A stretch of 64,000 nucleotides of DNA. Origin: Candidatus Acididesulfobacter guangdongensis. GTDB lineage: Bacteria; SZUA-79; Acidulodesulfobacterales; Acidulodesulfobacteraceae. Under the pieces are notes generated by a model. The model was given only the letters and a program-made list of their open reading frames with translations, was not told the origin of the DNA and searched no databases. This document shows, piece by piece, positions 2,558 through 15,660 of this stretch. The DNA is taken from the NCBI GenBank assembly GCA_004195045.1, contig SGBC01000003.1:1-64000 (forward strand), given 5' to 3'. Positions within the stretch are counted from its first letter, which is position 1. The number at the start of each line of letters is the position of its first letter. The position numbers and the translations under genes were made by a program.

Positions 2558-3241
2558 ATGTTTACTTTCAATAAAAACGTTTATAACGAAAAAGAAATTC
2601 GGTATTTTTCGAGTTTAATTAATTATATAGAAAATTTTCAAAAGAATAATATGGAATATTCAGAGATTCAAAATCAATTCGTCGATGTATTTCTTATGGC
2701 GTTAGGCGCAAGGGACGCCTATACAAAAGAACATTCCAACAGACTTTCTTTTCTTGCGAGGGAAATAGGCAGAGAGTTAAAACTTCCGCCCGTTGAAATT
2801 AAAAAAATAGTTTTAGCGGCGAAGCTGCACGATATAGGAAAAATCGGCATAAGCGATACTATTTTATTAAAACCGTCGAAATTGACGGACGAAGAATTTG
2901 ACGAAATCAAAAAGCACCCTGCAATAGGCTTCGATATGCTTAAAAATCTTAGCATTTTTTCGCATATCTCCGATTATATACTTTATCACCACGAAAAATT
3001 TGACGGTTCGGGTTATCCGGAGAAAATAAGCGGCGACGATATTCCGTTCGGCGCAAGAATTATAAGCATTGTGGATACGATAGATGCCATATTAACAAAA
3101 AGATCTTATAAGGAACCGAAACCGGTCGAATATGCCATTCAGGAGTTAAAGAAAAATTCGGGAACGCAATTTGATCCGATGATAACTAAATTCGCTATAA
3201 AAGTTATAGAGGAGAATAAAGATGTCTTTCAGACAAAATAG
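2558..3241 (+). CDS. Stand-alone HD-GYP domain protein (likely c-di-GMP phosphodiesterase)
   Basis: In the 227-residue soluble protein, nearly all of the length is an HD-GYP domain. Metal-ligand candidates are H59, H91-D92 (LHDIGKIGI), H120, H144-H145-E146 and D173. The signature HHEKFDGSGYPEKI is intact (144-157), so hydrolysis of cyclic di-GMP to GMP or pGpG is expected. There is no receiver, PAS or membrane segment; the first 40 residues are a short helical leader. It is embedded between traU and a cytochrome c gene, overlapping the latter by 20 nt, so translation of the two is probably coupled. A nucleotide phosphodiesterase is not a core part of F-type systems and is probably cargo or a regulator. 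Confidence 0.85.
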   Translation: MFTFNKNVYNEKEIRYFSSLINYIENFQKNNMEYSEIQNQFVDVFLMALGARDAYTKEHSNRLSFLAREIGRELKLPPVEIKKIVLAAKLHDIGKIGISDTILLKPSKLTDEEFDEIKKHPAIGFDMLKNLSIFSHISDYILYHHEKFDGSGYPEKISGDDIPFGARIISIVDTIDAILTKRSYKEPKPVEYAIQELKKNSGTQFDPMITKFAIKVIEENKDVFQTK

Positions 3242-3650
3242 AAACGATTCACTATATCCTTATCTCATTAATATCATTAATATATTGTTATCTAAAAAAA
3301 GCAACAATACTAACACGAAAATCAAAGGAGCATTGTTAATATTGCTTTTTATATGCCTTATTTTTCTTTTTTACTTTATTTTTTTAAATCAAGCACATGC
3401 CTTTAACAGTCAAGATGTAAAAAAGGGCAAGCAAATTGTAATTCAAAGCGGTTGCGTAAAATGTCATAGTTTTGTTAAAGGCAAAAGAATTGACAGAATA
3501 GTATCCCTCGCTGGTTGGGGAGATAAGCATTTAACACTTAAGCAGACCGAAAAAGCGATACGTTCCTGTAAGGCGGATATATATTGCTCGCAGATATTGA
3601 CAGATAAACAGGTTAAATATGTCGCTCGTTATCTTAATTCGTTGAAATAG
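3222..3650 (+). CDS. Membrane-anchored mono-haem cytochrome c-like protein
   Basis: The 142-residue protein has a cytoplasmic leader, one membrane segment (about 36-56) and a periplasmic domain with a single CVKCH haem-binding motif (C78, C81, H82). After the motif come WGDKHLTLKQTEKAIRSC and a C-terminal helix KQVKYVARYLNSLK, typical of small class I cytochromes. There is no Met in the mature protein, so the usual His/Met ligation is impossible; H103 is a candidate second ligand. Two extra Cys (C116, C122) sit where the Met loop would be and could form a disulfide. The gene starts inside the HD-GYP gene. Electron partners are unknown; CcdA four genes later could support haem attachment. Confidence 0.75.
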   Translation: MSFRQNRNDSLYPYLINIINILLSKKSNNTNTKIKGALLILLFICLIFLFYFIFLNQAHAFNSQDVKKGKQIVIQSGCVKCHSFVKGKRIDRIVSLAGWGDKHLTLKQTEKAIRSCKADIYCSQILTDKQVKYVARYLNSLK

Positions 3651-3659
3651 GAGGTTATT

Positions 3660-3842
3660 ATGTCAAAAAAAGAAAATTTTATTGGTAATTTTAAAAATAC
3701 AGAAAAGTCAAAAGATAAAACTTATATCAATACTTATGTTGATAAAAATAAAAATATATATCCTTTTGAAAAAGAGAAAGCCAATAAAATTAAGATAAAA
3801 CAGGCGTTAAAAGAGTTTTCAAAAGACAATTTAATTGATTAA
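3660..3842 (+). CDS. Small Lys-rich hypothetical protein
   Basis: The 60-residue, strongly basic and hydrophilic protein (repeated Lys/Asn/Asp) has no Cys, signal peptide or membrane segment. It begins 9 nt after the cytochrome stop with a good ribosome site (AGGAGG just upstream) and ends 20 nt before the TraC-like gene, so it fits the operon. No family is recognised. A small adaptor or chaperone for the neighbouring TraC-like protein would be a guess only. Confidence 0.5.
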   Translation: MSKKENFIGNFKNTEKSKDKTYINTYVDKNKNIYPFEKEKANKIKIKQALKEFSKDNLID

Positions 3843-3862
3843 AAATATAAAAGGGGGCGGCA

Positions 3863-4903
3863 ATGTTTAAATCATCTTTTACGTTAGATTTGTTTAAATC
3901 TAATACTAGCTATAACGGATATATTCTTGGCGGACAAAGTAAAAATATATTAATTAACAATATAATTATAGATTACCTGCGCAATAGAGATACTAAAATA
4001 TTTATTTTTGATAGCAATAAAGAACATATTAGATTAGTAGAGAATTTAGGCGGAGATTACATAAGCATCAATTCTAAAAGCGTGTTTTCCGTTAATCCTT
4101 TTTCTATAATTAAGACCGAAGAAGATTTTATGAAATATAAGGACTATTTAATAGATTTCTTATACGCTATAGGAGTTACATCTAAAAACTTAGATAAAGA
4201 TTTAAACGAACATTTTAGATTATATATGATAAATGCTTTATATGCAGTACAATACGAATGCAAAGATTTTGAACTAATAGATATATATAATTGGCTATCA
4301 AGACAAAACGATGAAACATTGCAACCATATATAGACAATCTAATGCCTTTTTGTCCTGAAGGTAAATACGGCAAGTTTTTTTCCGGAGAATTAACGTTAA
4401 ATTTTGGAGATAGTTTACTTTCGGCGATAGATTTCAGCGATTTAGCCTACGATCCTAAACTTAAAGCCTCTATCCAAGCGGCGGTAATGTTTCATATAGA
4501 GAGAATTTTTTACGATTATAACCGCTCTGTTGGGAAGACATTAATATTTATCAATCAGCTTAAAGAATTTGTTAAAGATTTACCGAATGCGCATGTTTTC
4601 ATAGACCGATTATACCGTGAAGCAAGAAGGAATTATATTTCTGTCGTTACGGTAATAGAATCGGTTAAAGATATATACGATAACGATAAAATATCGCAGA
4701 TTGGAAGAGCTATTATATTAAATTCAGAATGGAAATTTTTTTTAATGCAGGTTAAAACTGAAAACTCCTCAAATGAAATGAGTAATAAGTTTTGTTCTTA
4801 TATTTCAGATACGGAATTTACTTTAATAAAATCCTTACAATATAACGATGTTTATATCAAATCTAACGATAATTCAAATAGCGGAATTTTGATAAAATTT
4901 TAA
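3863..4903 (+). CDS. Degenerate TraC/VirB4-type ATPase, C-terminal half only
   Basis: The 346-residue protein aligns by eye with the ATPase half of TraC/VirB4: NPF (78-80), GKYGKFFSGE (168-176), a family helix REARRN, then the VTVIESVKD and ILNSEWKFFLMQ stretches near the end. The nucleotide site is ruined. The P-loop position reads LGGQSKNIL (22-30) instead of GGSGSGKS, and the Walker B position reads TLIFINQL (226-233), with Asn-Gln in place of Asp-Glu. The N-terminal domain of the roughly 800-residue family is absent. The frame is otherwise intact with a strong ribosome site (AAGGGGGCGG), so it looks like a maintained, non-hydrolysing paralogue and not simple decay. It follows the Lys-rich gene and precedes ccdA. 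Confidence 0.72.
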   Translation: MFKSSFTLDLFKSNTSYNGYILGGQSKNILINNIIIDYLRNRDTKIFIFDSNKEHIRLVENLGGDYISINSKSVFSVNPFSIIKTEEDFMKYKDYLIDFLYAIGVTSKNLDKDLNEHFRLYMINALYAVQYECKDFELIDIYNWLSRQNDETLQPYIDNLMPFCPEGKYGKFFSGELTLNFGDSLLSAIDFSDLAYDPKLKASIQAAVMFHIERIFYDYNRSVGKTLIFINQLKEFVKDLPNAHVFIDRLYREARRNYISVVTVIESVKDIYDNDKISQIGRAIILNSEWKFFLMQVKTENSSNEMSNKFCSYISDTEFTLIKSLQYNDVYIKSNDNSNSGILIKF

Positions 4904-4919
4904 AAGGAGTAGTATTGAT

Positions 4920-5687
4920 ATGCAATTGTTATTTACGCCTAACGTATCATTTTTATTAGCTTTTTTAGCAGGATTATTTTCTTTTATAAGTCCGTGCGTT
5001 TTTCCGTTAATACCATCATATCTGTCTTATATATCCGGTTTGTCGGTTAAAGAACTGACAGGCGATGAATCGTCAAAGGACAAGCCTAAGATTAAATTTA
5101 CTGCGGTTAAACATTCATTGATGTTTATCTTAGGATTTACTATTGTATTTGTTCTGTTAGGTATATTTTCAAGCGCCGTAGGCAGTTTATTACATTCAAT
5201 ATGGCTGATGCGGATAGCAGGAATATTTATAATAATTATGGGGCTATTCATACTCGGAGCTTTTAATAAAATAAAATTTTTATCGTTTATGAATGCTGAT
5301 GTTAATATTAACATAAAAAATAAACCGTTAGGTTTAATCGGTTCCGCTTTGGTAGGCGTAGTGTTCGCCGCCGCTTGGACGCCGTGTATTGGACCGATAC
5401 TTGCGTCTATTCTTTTTATAGCTTCAACTATGCACAATACGACGGCGGGAGCCGAATTATTATTTATTTACGCTATGGGGCTTGCCGTTCCCTTTTTTAT
5501 AAGCTCCGTATCGTTAAATTTATTCTTATCGGCGTTTAAAAAGATAAGACCTTTCATAAAGACCATATCGGTTATAAGCGGGGTAATTTTAATTGCCGTC
5601 GGCATACTGATATTTTTTAATTATCTGTCGATAATATCTTTATATTTCGGCAACGCTTTCCATTATAATATACCGTATAACGGGTAA
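4920..5687 (+). CDS. ccdA: CcdA/DsbD-family transmembrane thiol-disulfide transporter
   Basis: The 255-residue protein has six to seven hydrophobic segments and the two family Cys motifs: FISPCVFPLIPSYLSYISG (C26) and AAWTPCIGPI (C156). CcdA passes reducing equivalents from cytoplasmic thioredoxin to periplasmic acceptors, most often for cytochrome c maturation or disulfide correction. In this cluster the likely clients are the adjacent CVKCH cytochrome and the ten-Cys TraU. No periplasmic thioredoxin partner with a CxxC motif is visible nearby, since the TraF-like protein lacks Cys. It lies 16 nt after the TraC-like gene with the ribosome site AAGGAG. Confidence 0.88.
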   Translation: MQLLFTPNVSFLLAFLAGLFSFISPCVFPLIPSYLSYISGLSVKELTGDESSKDKPKIKFTAVKHSLMFILGFTIVFVLLGIFSSAVGSLLHSIWLMRIAGIFIIIMGLFILGAFNKIKFLSFMNADVNINIKNKPLGLIGSALVGVVFAAAWTPCIGPILASILFIASTMHNTTAGAELLFIYAMGLAVPFFISSVSLNLFLSAFKKIRPFIKTISVISGVILIAVGILIFFNYLSIISLYFGNAFHYNIPYNG

Positions 5688-5696
5688 GAGGTAACC

Positions 5697-5867
5697 ATGA
5701 GATATATTTTACTTGGCTCGGATGCTCCGAAAGTATACGTTAAAGATTGCAAAGAATCAAAATCGGAAATATGTCTTATCAAGGATACTGATTTCTTGAG
5801 AACTGAGTTGTCTTGCTCAGACTGTTTATATAATAGTATATGTTTTTTGTTACAAAAAAAATTTTAA
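5697..5867 (+). CDS. Small five-cysteine protein, unknown
   Basis: The 56-residue frame starts at the ATG at 5697, seven bases after AAGAGG, and ends with TAA at 5865-5867. It follows ccdA by 9 nt and precedes the next gene by 18 nt. The product has five Cys (C18, C26, C40, C43, C50), including a C-S-D-C pair, and no membrane segment. A zinc or iron-sulfur knuckle, or a thiol partner of CcdA, are possible but not shown. The tight spacing and the ribosome site argue that it is a real gene despite its length. Confidence 0.5.
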   Translation: MRYILLGSDAPKVYVKDCKESKSEICLIKDTDFLRTELSCSDCLYNSICFLLQKKF

Positions 5868-5885
5868 AAAAAGGAGAAAATATTA

Positions 5886-6095
5886 ATGTCTATAAATCAA
5901 AATCAAAAAATGTCGGTTGTTAATATAGCTGACTTAACCGTAATGCGGATACAAAAACTCAACAATATCGTTGAGGCTTTAAAAGATTATTTAACCTTGC
6001 CGGATTTAAGCAAACGTGAAAAAATAGATCTATATAATCAAAGAGAATCTCTCGTTGATGTTATAACATTTCTTAAGGAGTCCCGCTATGCCTAA
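5886..6095 (+). CDS. Small helical hypothetical protein
   Basis: The 69-residue soluble protein is predicted helical throughout (IADLTVMRIQKLNNIVEALKDYL, then a KREKIDLYNQRESL helix) and may form a short coiled coil. It has a strong ribosome site (AAAGGAG) and overlaps the start of trbC by 8 nt, which ties its translation to trbC. No Cys and no signal peptide. No family recognised. Confidence 0.5.
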   Translation: MSINQNQKMSVVNIADLTVMRIQKLNNIVEALKDYLTLPDLSKREKIDLYNQRESLVDVITFLKESRYA

Positions 6096-6948
6096 GAAAA
6101 TATTTTTTTTATTTTCGGTATCTATTTTATTTTTCGCTTTCAACGTTCCGGCTTTTGCCGGAGAATCTTGGATAGGTAAAGCTAAACATCCTAATTATAA
6201 AGGCACTATAAACTTGCCGCATTATTCGGTAAATATGAATAACTTGACTAAAGAATTATTAAATATTAAAAAGCAGGAAAAGAAAGAAAAAAAAGTAAAA
6301 TATTCTAAACCGAATGCCGAAGTGAATGCGGCGGTTAAATCCACTTTAAGCACTTTAGCTACTAAATCGTTTAACCGCAAAATAAGTTTCTTAGCAAAGC
6401 AGATGCTCGGTAAGGGCGAGTTTGGCAAATACGTGTCTAAATCTATTAAAAATAATTATCTTAAAGTTTTAAAAAACAATAAGCCTTTCAATATGGCGGG
6501 CGGTCATAGGCTTTTTTTAGTTATATCGAGTTCTATTCCTTTTAAAACTTTAAGGCGTTATGTTTTTCAAATAGCGAATAACGACTTGCCTATTCAAATG
6601 GTTTTAAGAGGGCTTTTGCCCGGTTCAAATAACGGCAGGGATTTTATGCCTACAATAAAATATATTACAAGGCTTATTAAATACAAAGGCAAAGCAGGAT
6701 ATTACGATATGCATGTTGACATCGACCCGTTAATTCCGTCCAAATATAATATAAAGGTAGTTCCCGCATTAATTTACGACGTCAATTATAATCCCCAAAC
6801 TTTTACGACGATAGGAGATAAGGCTTACGTCGTTTACGGAGACGTCGATTTAGAATATGGTTTAAAACAAATTGAGAATAAGACTAATTCAAAATATATC
6901 AAGGAAGTTCTAAATCGGTTTAAGGCAAATTCTCTTTTTAATCATTAA
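6088..6948 (+). CDS. trbC: Type-F conjugative pilin assembly protein TrbC
   Basis: The 286-residue protein has a signal peptide (cleavage near residue 24, AFA|GES). Its C-terminal half carries the TrbC pattern: RLFLVISSSIPFKTLRRYV, then MVLRGLLPGS, HVDIDPLIPSKYNIKVVPALIYD, and VVYGDVDLEYGL. TrbC works in the periplasm with TraW during F-pilus assembly. The middle region (about 55-100) is Lys-rich and unconserved. The start ATG lies 8 nt inside the previous gene behind AAGGAG. The transcript probably ends shortly after, since 381 bp containing a terminator follow. Confidence 0.82.
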   Translation: MPKKIFFLFSVSILFFAFNVPAFAGESWIGKAKHPNYKGTINLPHYSVNMNNLTKELLNIKKQEKKEKKVKYSKPNAEVNAAVKSTLSTLATKSFNRKISFLAKQMLGKGEFGKYVSKSIKNNYLKVLKNNKPFNMAGGHRLFLVISSSIPFKTLRRYVFQIANNDLPIQMVLRGLLPGSNNGRDFMPTIKYITRLIKYKGKAGYYDMHVDIDPLIPSKYNIKVVPALIYDVNYNPQTFTTIGDKAYVVYGDVDLEYGLKQIENKTNSKYIKEVLNRFKANSLFNH

Positions 6949-7329: not shown

Positions 7330-7716
7330 ATGTTCAAATCGAAAAAATTATTTGTAATTTTATTTTTAATCGCCGGTTTTTTATTTTTATTTGGCAACGT
7401 TCAAAAAGCTTCTGCCGTGGAACATTCAAGCGGTATTTTTATTTCGACGCTTCCTCGTATTGCCAATAATAAAATCATAAAAGACTATGGATTTATAGCA
7501 ATAGTCAGAAATGCAGGGAATAACGACATAATGATTAGCGTTAACGGCAATTATACAGAAATGCCGATATTATTCGGCGGTCCGATTCTTCCGGTGAATA
7601 CTTTCAATGTGATAAATCAAAATAAACCTGCCGGCGCTAATGCTTGCATTAACTTGAAATTTCAGCATGGCGATTACGTTTCTTGCGAATACGTAACTCT
7701 TTCATTTAGGAAATAA
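7330..7716 (+). CDS. Small secreted protein, unknown
   Basis: The 128-residue protein has a clear signal peptide (hydrophobic 8-24, cleavage likely after ASA at 29). The mature part is about 99 residues with two Cys (near residues 106 and 118) that could form one disulfide. It is rich in beta-prone residues (FIAIVRN, IMISVNGNY, YVTLSF), so a small beta domain is likely. The ribosome site AAGGAGG is strong. It lies directly behind two operator-like palindromes and 5 nt before the integrase gene, so the two are probably one regulated transcript. No family recognised; exclusion or surface cargo of the element is a guess. Confidence 0.6.
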   Translation: MFKSKKLFVILFLIAGFLFLFGNVQKASAVEHSSGIFISTLPRIANNKIIKDYGFIAIVRNAGNNDIMISVNGNYTEMPILFGGPILPVNTFNVINQNKPAGANACINLKFQHGDYVSCEYVTLSFRK

Positions 7717-7721
7717 ATATC

Positions 7722-8375
7722 ATGCAGGAATCTATCCTATTTTACGAAGAAATTAAAAAAGGCAAAAAATCGGTTTTAAAAGAAACGACTTTAAAGAAGC
7801 CTAATGAAACTATTAAATTTTTCTATAAAGACGAAATTAAGTTATTAATGGAAAATACGGACAACGGTTTTCATAAACTTTTATTTCTTTTTATTTACGA
7901 AACGGGCTCCAGAATATCCGAGGCTCTATCCGTAAAATACTCAGATATAGACGAATCTACATCTAAAGTTAAAATACCGGTTCTTAAACAAAAAAGAAAG
8001 GTATGGAAATTTTTAAAAATTTCAGACAAATTATTGTCTTTAATATTATCAAGACGGTTAAAAGGGTTTGATAAAAACGATTATGTGTTTGCGAGATTTA
8101 AGGGTAAAAGATATATATCAAGACAGGCGGCGGATAGAATCTTTGCTAAATACGTCAAGAATATTTTGGGCAATGGTTATTCCGACAGGGCGCATCTTCA
8201 TGCCTTGCGTCATTCAAGAGCTGTCCACTTGTTGGATAACGGCATGAATATAATGCTATTAAAAAATTTCTTAGGTCATAGCAATATATCTAATACATTG
8301 ATTTATCTTAAATATAGTTCCAAAGATTTGGATAATGCTATAGAGCAGGCTAATAATAATTTGTTTTTTGAATAG
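7722..8375 (+). CDS. Tyrosine recombinase (integrase), short form
   Basis: The 217-residue protein carries the catalytic domain of the tyrosine recombinase family: R64 in TGSRISEAL, H160-x-x-R163 in HALRHSR, H186 in LGHSNIS and nucleophile Y195 in TLIYLKY. It performs site-specific strand exchange. The N-terminal core-binding domain is nearly absent: only about 35 residues precede the catalytic domain, against about 100 in XerC-like enzymes. It lies within 430 bp of the tRNA-Val att repeat and reads toward it, so it may serve integration or excision of the element, although tRNA-directed integrases are usually longer. It could instead be an accessory invertase or resolvase. Confidence 0.8.
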   Translation: MQESILFYEEIKKGKKSVLKETTLKKPNETIKFFYKDEIKLLMENTDNGFHKLLFLFIYETGSRISEALSVKYSDIDESTSKVKIPVLKQKRKVWKFLKISDKLLSLILSRRLKGFDKNDYVFARFKGKRYISRQAADRIFAKYVKNILGNGYSDRAHLHALRHSRAVHLLDNGMNIMLLKNFLGHSNISNTLIYLKYSSKDLDNAIEQANNNLFFE

Positions 8376-8799: not shown

Positions 8800-8896
8800 C
8801 ACAGTTTAAAAAATTAACTATTTTAAACCTACCGGAAAGTCTTTATTTATCTGGTAGGCACGGGCGGTCTCGAACCGCCGACCCCTACCGTGTCAA
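8800..8896. repeat. Att-site direct repeat, copy 1 (tRNA-Val 3' end)
   Basis: A 97-bp stretch is identical to 8986-9082. Bases 8852-8896 repeat the last 45 nt of tRNA-Val (minus strand). The rest is sequence downstream of the tRNA, including the inverted repeat GTTTAAAA/TTTTAAAC (8804-8828). Duplication of a tRNA 3' end is the mark left by tRNA-targeted integrases, so this is an attachment site at the edge of the conjugative element. Confidence 0.85.
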
Positions 8897-8907
8897 ATCT
8901 TTTTTAA

Positions 8908-8985
8908 AAAGGCTTTAATCAGGCTATTAAAGATATTGAAGAAGAACTATTGGAATTTGAAAAATCTTTTGACCACAAAAACGAC

Positions 8986-9003
<18 letters not shown>
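8908..9003 (+). pseudogene. C-terminal gene remnant between the att copies
   Basis: A 31-codon open stretch, without a start and preceded by an in-frame TAA at 8905, ends with TAA at 9001-9003 inside repeat copy 2. It encodes a charged helical tail (KDIEEELLEFEKSF...) such as integrases have at their C-terminus. Its stop lies 35 nt beyond the tRNA 3' end, where integrase genes of tRNA-targeted elements often finish. It is likely the scar of an earlier element. Family assignment is inference. Confidence 0.4.
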
Positions 9004-9113
<110 letters not shown>

Positions 9114-15324: not shown

Positions 15325-15399
15325 GGGCGCATAACTCAGGGGTAGAGTGCTACCTTCACACGGTAGAAGCCGGCGGTTCGAGACCGTCTGCGCCCACCA
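15325..15399 (+). tRNA. tRNA-Val (anticodon CAC)
   Basis: The 75-nt gene has an encoded CCA. The acceptor stem GGGCGCA pairs with TGCGCCC, the anticodon stem is CTACC/GGTAG with loop TTCACAC (CAC, reads GUG), and the T-loop is GGTTCGAGACC. It shares the anticodon-stem and T-arm sequence with the tRNA-Val at 9038-9113. No att duplication is seen near it. Confidence 0.95.
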
Positions 15400-15660
15400 C
15401 TTAAAAACCTTGTAAATCCTTTTTTTCACCGACGGAAAAGTCAGGTCGTTACTTTTTATTAAAATAGATATTCTATATTAGTATTTTATGTTATATTATA
15501 TGAAAAGGTAAATTATAACCAAAAAGTGTCTTAATTTACTCCAACAATATGGGGGTTAGACCATTGATAATTTCATAGGAAGTATACTGCACTCATTTGT
15601 CAAGACCGATTTTTTATTTTCTTACTTCCTTTTTTTTAATTCTTTTTCATTATCATTTTA

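Follow-up and report, generated by a model that had tools for sequence, protein, structure and literature searches.

A predicted F-type conjugation operon with HD-GYP, cytochrome c and CcdA genes between traU and trbC in Candidatus Acididesulfobacter guangdongensis

Introduction

Enzymes of c-di-GMP metabolism have precedents on conjugative elements, in the cyclases of SXT/R391 and in Acidithiobacillus ICEs (PMC6416229). In that description these are cyclases or GGDEF-EAL proteins, in the Acidithiobacillus case encoded near trb-type genes, and no phosphodiesterase gene lies in a traU-trbC interval. The papers searched on IncC or IncT conjugation genes make no mention of EAL, phosphodiesterase or c-di-GMP. 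Thiol chemistry also has ties to conjugation: TrbB of F depends on DsbD and has the cysteine-rich TraN, TraU and TraH as putative clients (PMC11315126), and transfer of Rts1 and SXT is reduced when DsbC-type proteins are lost (PMC10838148). Cytochrome c maturation is impaired by loss of DsbD or CcdA (PMC3420020), and the Shewanella cytochrome NapB is thought to reduce a thioredoxin-like protein (PMC8782879).

The locus described here lies at the left end of the first 64,000 nt of contig SGBC01000003.1 (C3), the stretch analysed and referred to as the window, from a 2.2-Mb, 99%-complete genome (G000). It is an F-type conjugation operon of known kind; what differs is an accessory block of signalling and redox genes.

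Organization of the locus

Between coordinates 147 and 6948 the + strand carries traF-traW-traU, a group of seven genes, and trbC, with gaps from traU through trbC of +5, -20, +9, +20, +16, +9, +18 and -8 bp. An earlier note on this DNA had placed seven closely packed genes between traU and trbC, and the open reading frames are located as it stated, co-directional and either overlapping or at most 20 bp apart. TraF, TraW, TraU and TrbC are all present and clustered (Pfam/NCBIfam), as in an F-type T4SS. The cysteine-rich traU (1527–2552; PF06834, 5e-76) and the F-type trbC (6088–6948; TrbC_Ftype PF09673, 1.9e-15) flank the block, and traW (727–1521) matches TIGR02743 at 2.3e-28, under its curated cut-off. 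The 5′-truncated traF (147–743; PF13728, 2.6e-29) belongs to a thioredoxin-like family and has no CxxC; it lacks the ~79-residue N-terminal part, including the signal peptide, that is present in traF of the related genome G011. Bases 1–127 of the window do not match the relatives' traF, and the contig start falls inside this gene.

Downstream of trbC on the same strand are a gene for a 128-aa apparently exported protein (7330–7716), 58% identical to the protein at the corresponding place in G013:C76, and a tyrosine recombinase gene possibly belonging to the element (7722–8375; PF00589, 2.4e-30), a similar gene being found near another F-type cluster of G011. Family searches of the window genome did not find TraH or the 767-aa cysteine-rich gene located ahead of traF in the relatives, nor was a cognate full-length TraC seen, the other VirB4 genes of the genome sitting in other secretion clusters; the window copy of the element may therefore not work.

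Genes between traU and trbC

The first gene of the block (2558–3241, +; HD_5 PF13487, 1.7e-37) encodes a stand-alone HD-GYP protein of the c-di-GMP phosphodiesterase family, with intact active-site motifs HDIGK and HHEKFDGSGYP (HD...GK and HHExxDGxGYP) and no sensor or membrane domain identified by Pfam. It is predicted to be a c-di-GMP-destroying enzyme carried by the conjugation operon. It begins 5 bases after traU in the window and up to 36 bases after it in relatives, the motifs being kept, and its overlap with the cytochrome gene is 20 bp in all four copies described below.

The cytochrome gene (3222–3650, +; Cytochrom_C PF00034, 1.7e-4, above cut-off) encodes a mono-haem c-type cytochrome with a CVKCH haem site (CxxCH) and an N-terminal, signal-like export-type helix, as in class I cytochromes. 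No Met is conserved in an alignment of nine homologues, so the usual Met axial ligand is absent, but H103 is kept in 8/9 and C116 and C122 are conserved; bis-His ligation, Cys ligation or a disulfide for the Cys pair are consequently all possible. The structure model is poor (pLDDT 65, with weak cytochrome matches only), so no ligand was drawn from it. Homologues occur away from tra genes in G016, G015 and G011:C1, and one adjoins an integrase in the vicinity of another G011 F-type cluster; a tblastn search against plasmids found nothing. A role as redox partner or haem sensor seems likelier for this protein than one in carrying respiratory electrons.

A 60-aa lysine-rich protein with a conserved C-terminal half (3660–3842, +; five homologues) follows, and then a truncated paralogue of the VirB4/TraC ATPase domain (3863–4903, +; TIGR02746 positions 419–738, 1e-36). 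Like the C-terminal RecA-like domain of VirB4/TraC ATPases, it is 30–35% identical to full-length TraC proteins of the same group, but it has no N-terminal domain, its C-terminus is shortened, and both Walker motifs are lost. Where relatives have YIVATxGAGKS and FIDEAH, the window protein aligns as YILG--GQSKN and FINQLK, and the G011 protein has GQGKN. The Walker A consensus GxxxxGK[ST] is thus replaced by GGQSKN with a 2-residue deletion, and the DE of Walker B by FINQ rather than FIDE, which bears out the suggestion in the earlier note that this TraC-like protein has no nucleotide motifs. The fold itself is that of VirB4 (AlphaFold pTM 0.74), the nine best Foldseek matches all being VirB4 and the match to Thermoanaerobacter VirB4 4ag5 having an E of 2.7e-12. 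A related-locus search of genome contigs with the dead TraC as query confirmed no relative.

CcdA is the membrane core of a thiol electron route, and the fifth gene (4920–5687, +) encodes a transmembrane thiol-electron transporter of the CcdA/DsbD type, over the Pfam cut-off (DsbD_TM PF02683, 1e-18) and with both membrane cysteines (SPC, TPC) present. The last two genes encode a 56-aa five-Cys protein (5697–5867, +), whose cysteines are conserved in the G013 orthologue, and a 69-aa helical protein (5886–6095, +) with a 77% identical orthologue in G013. Neither was assigned to a family in Pfam/NCBIfam or PHROGs; PHROGs and PADLOC searches of the small proteins returned nothing meaningful, and no phage or anti-defence role was assigned.

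Related loci

Among 118 genomes searched, traU is present only in G000, G011, G013 (three loci) and G021. Four copies in three genomes (G000, G011:C58, G013:C76 and G013:C82) have traU-HD-GYP-cytochrome c-60aa-CcdA in common, so the arrangement is not unique to one assembly. The shared order is HD-GYP, cytochrome, 60-aa gene, a variable position and CcdA, continuing with the five-Cys gene, the helical gene and trbC where these are assembled (the window and C76). The variable position holds dead TraC in G000 and G011 (G011:C58 reads traF-W-U-HD-GYP-cytochrome-60aa-dead TraC-CcdA), a 128-aa orphan in C82 and nothing in C76. The C82 orphan was considered as a relic of dead TraC and rejected, as it gives no match. 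In C82 the cytochrome gene is in addition followed by a TnpB-type insertion, and at G013:C78 a cytochrome-60aa-GNAT-CcdA cassette follows a traH-like gene without an adjacent HD-GYP gene.

Pairwise dN/dS values, which are affected by recombination, are 0.11 for HD-GYP, 0.16 for the cytochrome, 0.22–0.26 for the 60-aa protein, 0.32 (95% 0.20–0.50) for dead TraC, 0.10 for CcdA, 0.06 for the five-Cys protein and 0.20 for the helical protein. As these are well below 1, every gene of the block is under purifying selection, and together with the recurrence in four copies they indicate that the arrangement is not chance. Between G000 and G011, dS is 0.008 in traF, rises to 1.4 in the cytochrome gene and returns to 0.2 in dead TraC, a mosaic that is a sign of recombination.

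The element CcdA resembles the host's CcdA-TlpA/ResA pair, being 95% identical at the protein level to a second CcdA of the window genome that adjoins a TlpA-type thioredoxin; it differs in having no adjacent TlpA and in being part of a tra operon that also encodes an exported cytochrome. With a CcdA-TlpA pair already present in the genome, it could be redundant. The CcdA tree pairs the window copy with a ccdA-tlpA copy of G005 and the C78 copy with that of G000, and it places the C76 and C82 copies in a clade of their own. On this tree CcdA was captured into, or exchanged with, the element more than once from chromosomal ccdA-tlpA pairs.

The proposal that the seven genes are a co-inherited unit does not hold, since dead TraC is absent from both HD-GYP-bearing G013 copies, CcdA is polyphyletic, the cytochrome occurs alone elsewhere and divergence is mosaic. 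The search of related genomes that the earlier note had called for finds the genes often together inside elements, yet separable.

Two contigs of the relatives (G011:C2 and G013:C124) carry what would be the partner operon, with a pilin-like gene, TraL/E/K/B-like genes (by position), DsbC (CPYC), a TraV-like gene, full TraC, a TrbI-like gene, an S26 peptidase, a GGEEF protein, TraH and TraG. GGDEF, DsbC, S26, TraH and TraG are Pfam-confirmed in G011, as is GGDEF in G013, and the GGEEF diguanylate cyclase is apparently membrane-anchored. According to Pfam, the gene before the 767-aa cysteine-rich pre-traF protein is TraN. The traN within which G011:C2 ends shares 81% identity with the traN gene located upstream of traF on G013:C76, and for this reason C2 and C58 most likely belong to one cluster with ~3 kb between them unassembled. 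The relatives resemble F-type (MPF-F) systems in TraN, full TraC, DsbC, S26 peptidase, TraH and TraG as well as in the TraF, TraW, TraU and TrbC found in the window. Unlike those systems, they have a GGDEF gene placed after the S26 peptidase gene and before traH, and the window has seven additional genes separating traU from trbC. A degenerate HD_5 (HD-GYP-like) protein (L147 2055–2801) is also encoded in the partner tra operon of G011:C2.

Predicted c-di-GMP enzymes beside traU in other elements

A tblastn search with TraU reveals EAL genes beside traU in plasmids. pHRV44 (Nitrosophilus) and pCIG1485E (Campylobacter) both have the gene order traG-traF-traW-traU-EAL-trbC, in which EAL directly follows traU. 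These plasmids resemble the window in the order traF-traW-traU-phosphodiesterase-trbC, followed in theirs by a small gene and a thioredoxin-like gene, and they have HD_5 and annotated GGDEF/cyclase genes near the coupling-protein gene. However, their phosphodiesterase is EAL rather than HD-GYP, the HD pair is no longer present in their HD_5 proteins, and there is no cytochrome or CcdA. In Campylobacter coli F-type clusters the traU-trbC slot holds a helix-turn-helix gene (L063 2573–3235; L105 10902–11561).

Plasmids of Aeromonas and Edwardsiella and IncC plasmids have an EAL gene, with its EAL motifs kept, between a TraW/TrbC fusion and traU (e.g. NC_023291.1 58690–59361; L140 10001–10672). 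This IncC-type EAL gene is found in 847 plasmid records, 844 of them predicted conjugative, and among the matches listed the hits overlap a traW/trbC or traU annotation in 60/60 records. IncC and pAhD4-type plasmids are like the window in having a c-di-GMP phosphodiesterase-family gene directly beside traU and share DsbC in the cluster with its relatives, but the EAL fold precedes traU after the TraW/TrbC fusion and there is no cytochrome, CcdA or dead TraC. Elsewhere, an HD-GYP gene overlaps traC in a cluster from Nitrospirae, and another lies after traH in G019.

As a base rate, one EAL and four HD-GYP genes were counted in the 1.31 Mb of 80 species-level traU loci; three of them adjoin traU, two of the three being from one genome. 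With five genes in 80 species-level loci, it is not claimed that c-di-GMP genes are generally enriched near traU. A c-di-GMP enzyme beside traU recurs in independent lineages and is rare outside a few. The HD-GYP variant beside traU is known from one lineage only, in which the relatives are fragmented assemblies; the link to c-di-GMP is convergent, a different fold (EAL) having been placed independently at or beside traU in other phyla. The earlier remark that no described system has this combination survives for the full set, none having been found, and is weakened by the precedents for c-di-GMP enzymes on conjugative elements and by EAL at or beside the same slot.

Possible function of the block

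What the sequence shows is solid, and the composite function of the block, as read from these comparisons, stands at about an even chance. That even weight applies jointly to the whole of the preferred reading, which is that the traF-traW-traU-...-trbC operon in the window belongs to an F-type (MPF-F) conjugative element and carries an accessory block after traU and before trbC, that this conjugation system encodes c-di-GMP enzymes of its own and supports its cysteine-rich proteins by thiol reduction, and that the dead ATPase is an accessory.

During expression of the transfer genes, HD-GYP and the GGEEF cyclase would together control the c-di-GMP level, with HD-GYP bringing it down at the time the mating-pair proteins are produced. 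Lowered c-di-GMP might make the donor less sessile or less matrix-coated, or might relieve a c-di-GMP-sensitive step of pilus assembly. CcdA would take electrons from cytoplasmic thioredoxin and hand them to thioredoxin-like proteins of the periplasm, the recipient being the element's DsbC where present and otherwise host TlpA; this would support disulfide isomerisation in the cysteine-rich TraN, TraU and TraH and keep the cytochrome CxxCH thiols reduced for haem attachment. The dead TraC domain would be an exchangeable accessory protein, possibly binding and restraining live TraC. The link of c-di-GMP and redox state to conjugation put forward in the earlier note fits in that both kinds of gene belong to the transfer system and the partner operon of relatives adds a diguanylate cyclase and DsbC; no evidence was found for a direct coupling of redox to c-di-GMP.

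It is unlikely, though worth weighing, that the block is passive cargo with no transfer role, its HD-GYP, cytochrome and CcdA genes having been acquired singly because the traU-trbC interval tolerates insertions. Such piecemeal gain would account for the polyphyly of CcdA among chromosomal copies, the unrelated genes at the variable position, the cytochrome alone beside unrelated genes elsewhere, the helix-turn-helix gene in the same slot in C. coli and the small overall number of c-di-GMP genes near traU. Purifying selection on every gene speaks against it, as do the tight overlaps retained in all copies, the independent arrival of a phosphodiesterase of different fold beside traU in other phyla and the acquisition of one function, CcdA, more than once. 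A redox-gated c-di-GMP switch for conjugation, with the cytochrome and CcdA as an envelope redox sensor controlling HD-GYP, is considerably less probable still: the constant hd-gyp/cytochrome overlap and the unusual cytochrome (no conserved Met, a conserved Cys pair) would suit it, but HD-GYP has no sensor or membrane domain while the cytochrome is exported, no block protein obviously connects the two compartments, and the cytochrome-60aa-CcdA cassette also occurs after the traH-like gene without an adjacent HD-GYP.

Compatible with the preferred reading for the relatives, the chances are balanced that the window copy itself is what decay or truncation has left of a conjugative element and has lost the capacity to transfer. 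The contig begins inside traF with non-homologous sequence, and TraH and the cysteine-rich gene preceding traF are missing from a 99%-complete genome; on the other hand, all remaining open reading frames are intact, most of the per-site divergence from G011 is synonymous, and the missing part may be unbinned. Plasmid contigs are often left unbinned.

More broadly, and rather tentatively, the place beside traU in F-type systems may be a recurrent site for a phosphodiesterase of HD-GYP or EAL fold in this uncultured lineage, in Campylobacterota and in IncC plasmids, and local c-di-GMP removal may be a step of F-type pilus assembly or mating, joined here by an element-borne thiol-redox route and a pseudo-ATPase regulating TraC. 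With two unrelated enzyme folds beside traU, the suspected link between c-di-GMP and conjugation is directly testable on a laboratory plasmid. IncC plasmids are a main vehicle of drug resistance, and the phosphodiesterase-family gene beside traU in the 847 IncC-type records gives the question relevance to drug-resistance plasmids. If the thiol route operates as proposed, the CcdA/DsbC/cytochrome set would apparently be the first case of an F-type element with its own membrane electron source for periplasmic thiols.

Other secretion clusters and repeats

The window genome has three further VirB4-based secretion clusters with MoxR-like ATPases (C1:6-17k, C2:478-489k and C3:370-383k), of which one has two tyrosine integrases and ParA as neighbours and another lies near a type IV pilus locus that includes a GGDEF/HD-GYP pair. 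As a candidate for the other half of the system, the T4SS at the start of contig C1 was rejected, being a self-contained cluster of another type. Within window coordinates 8800–9082 a 97-bp sequence is present twice with 100% identity, the copies 186 bp apart, and related copies are located at 15326–15405 of the window and on contig C1.
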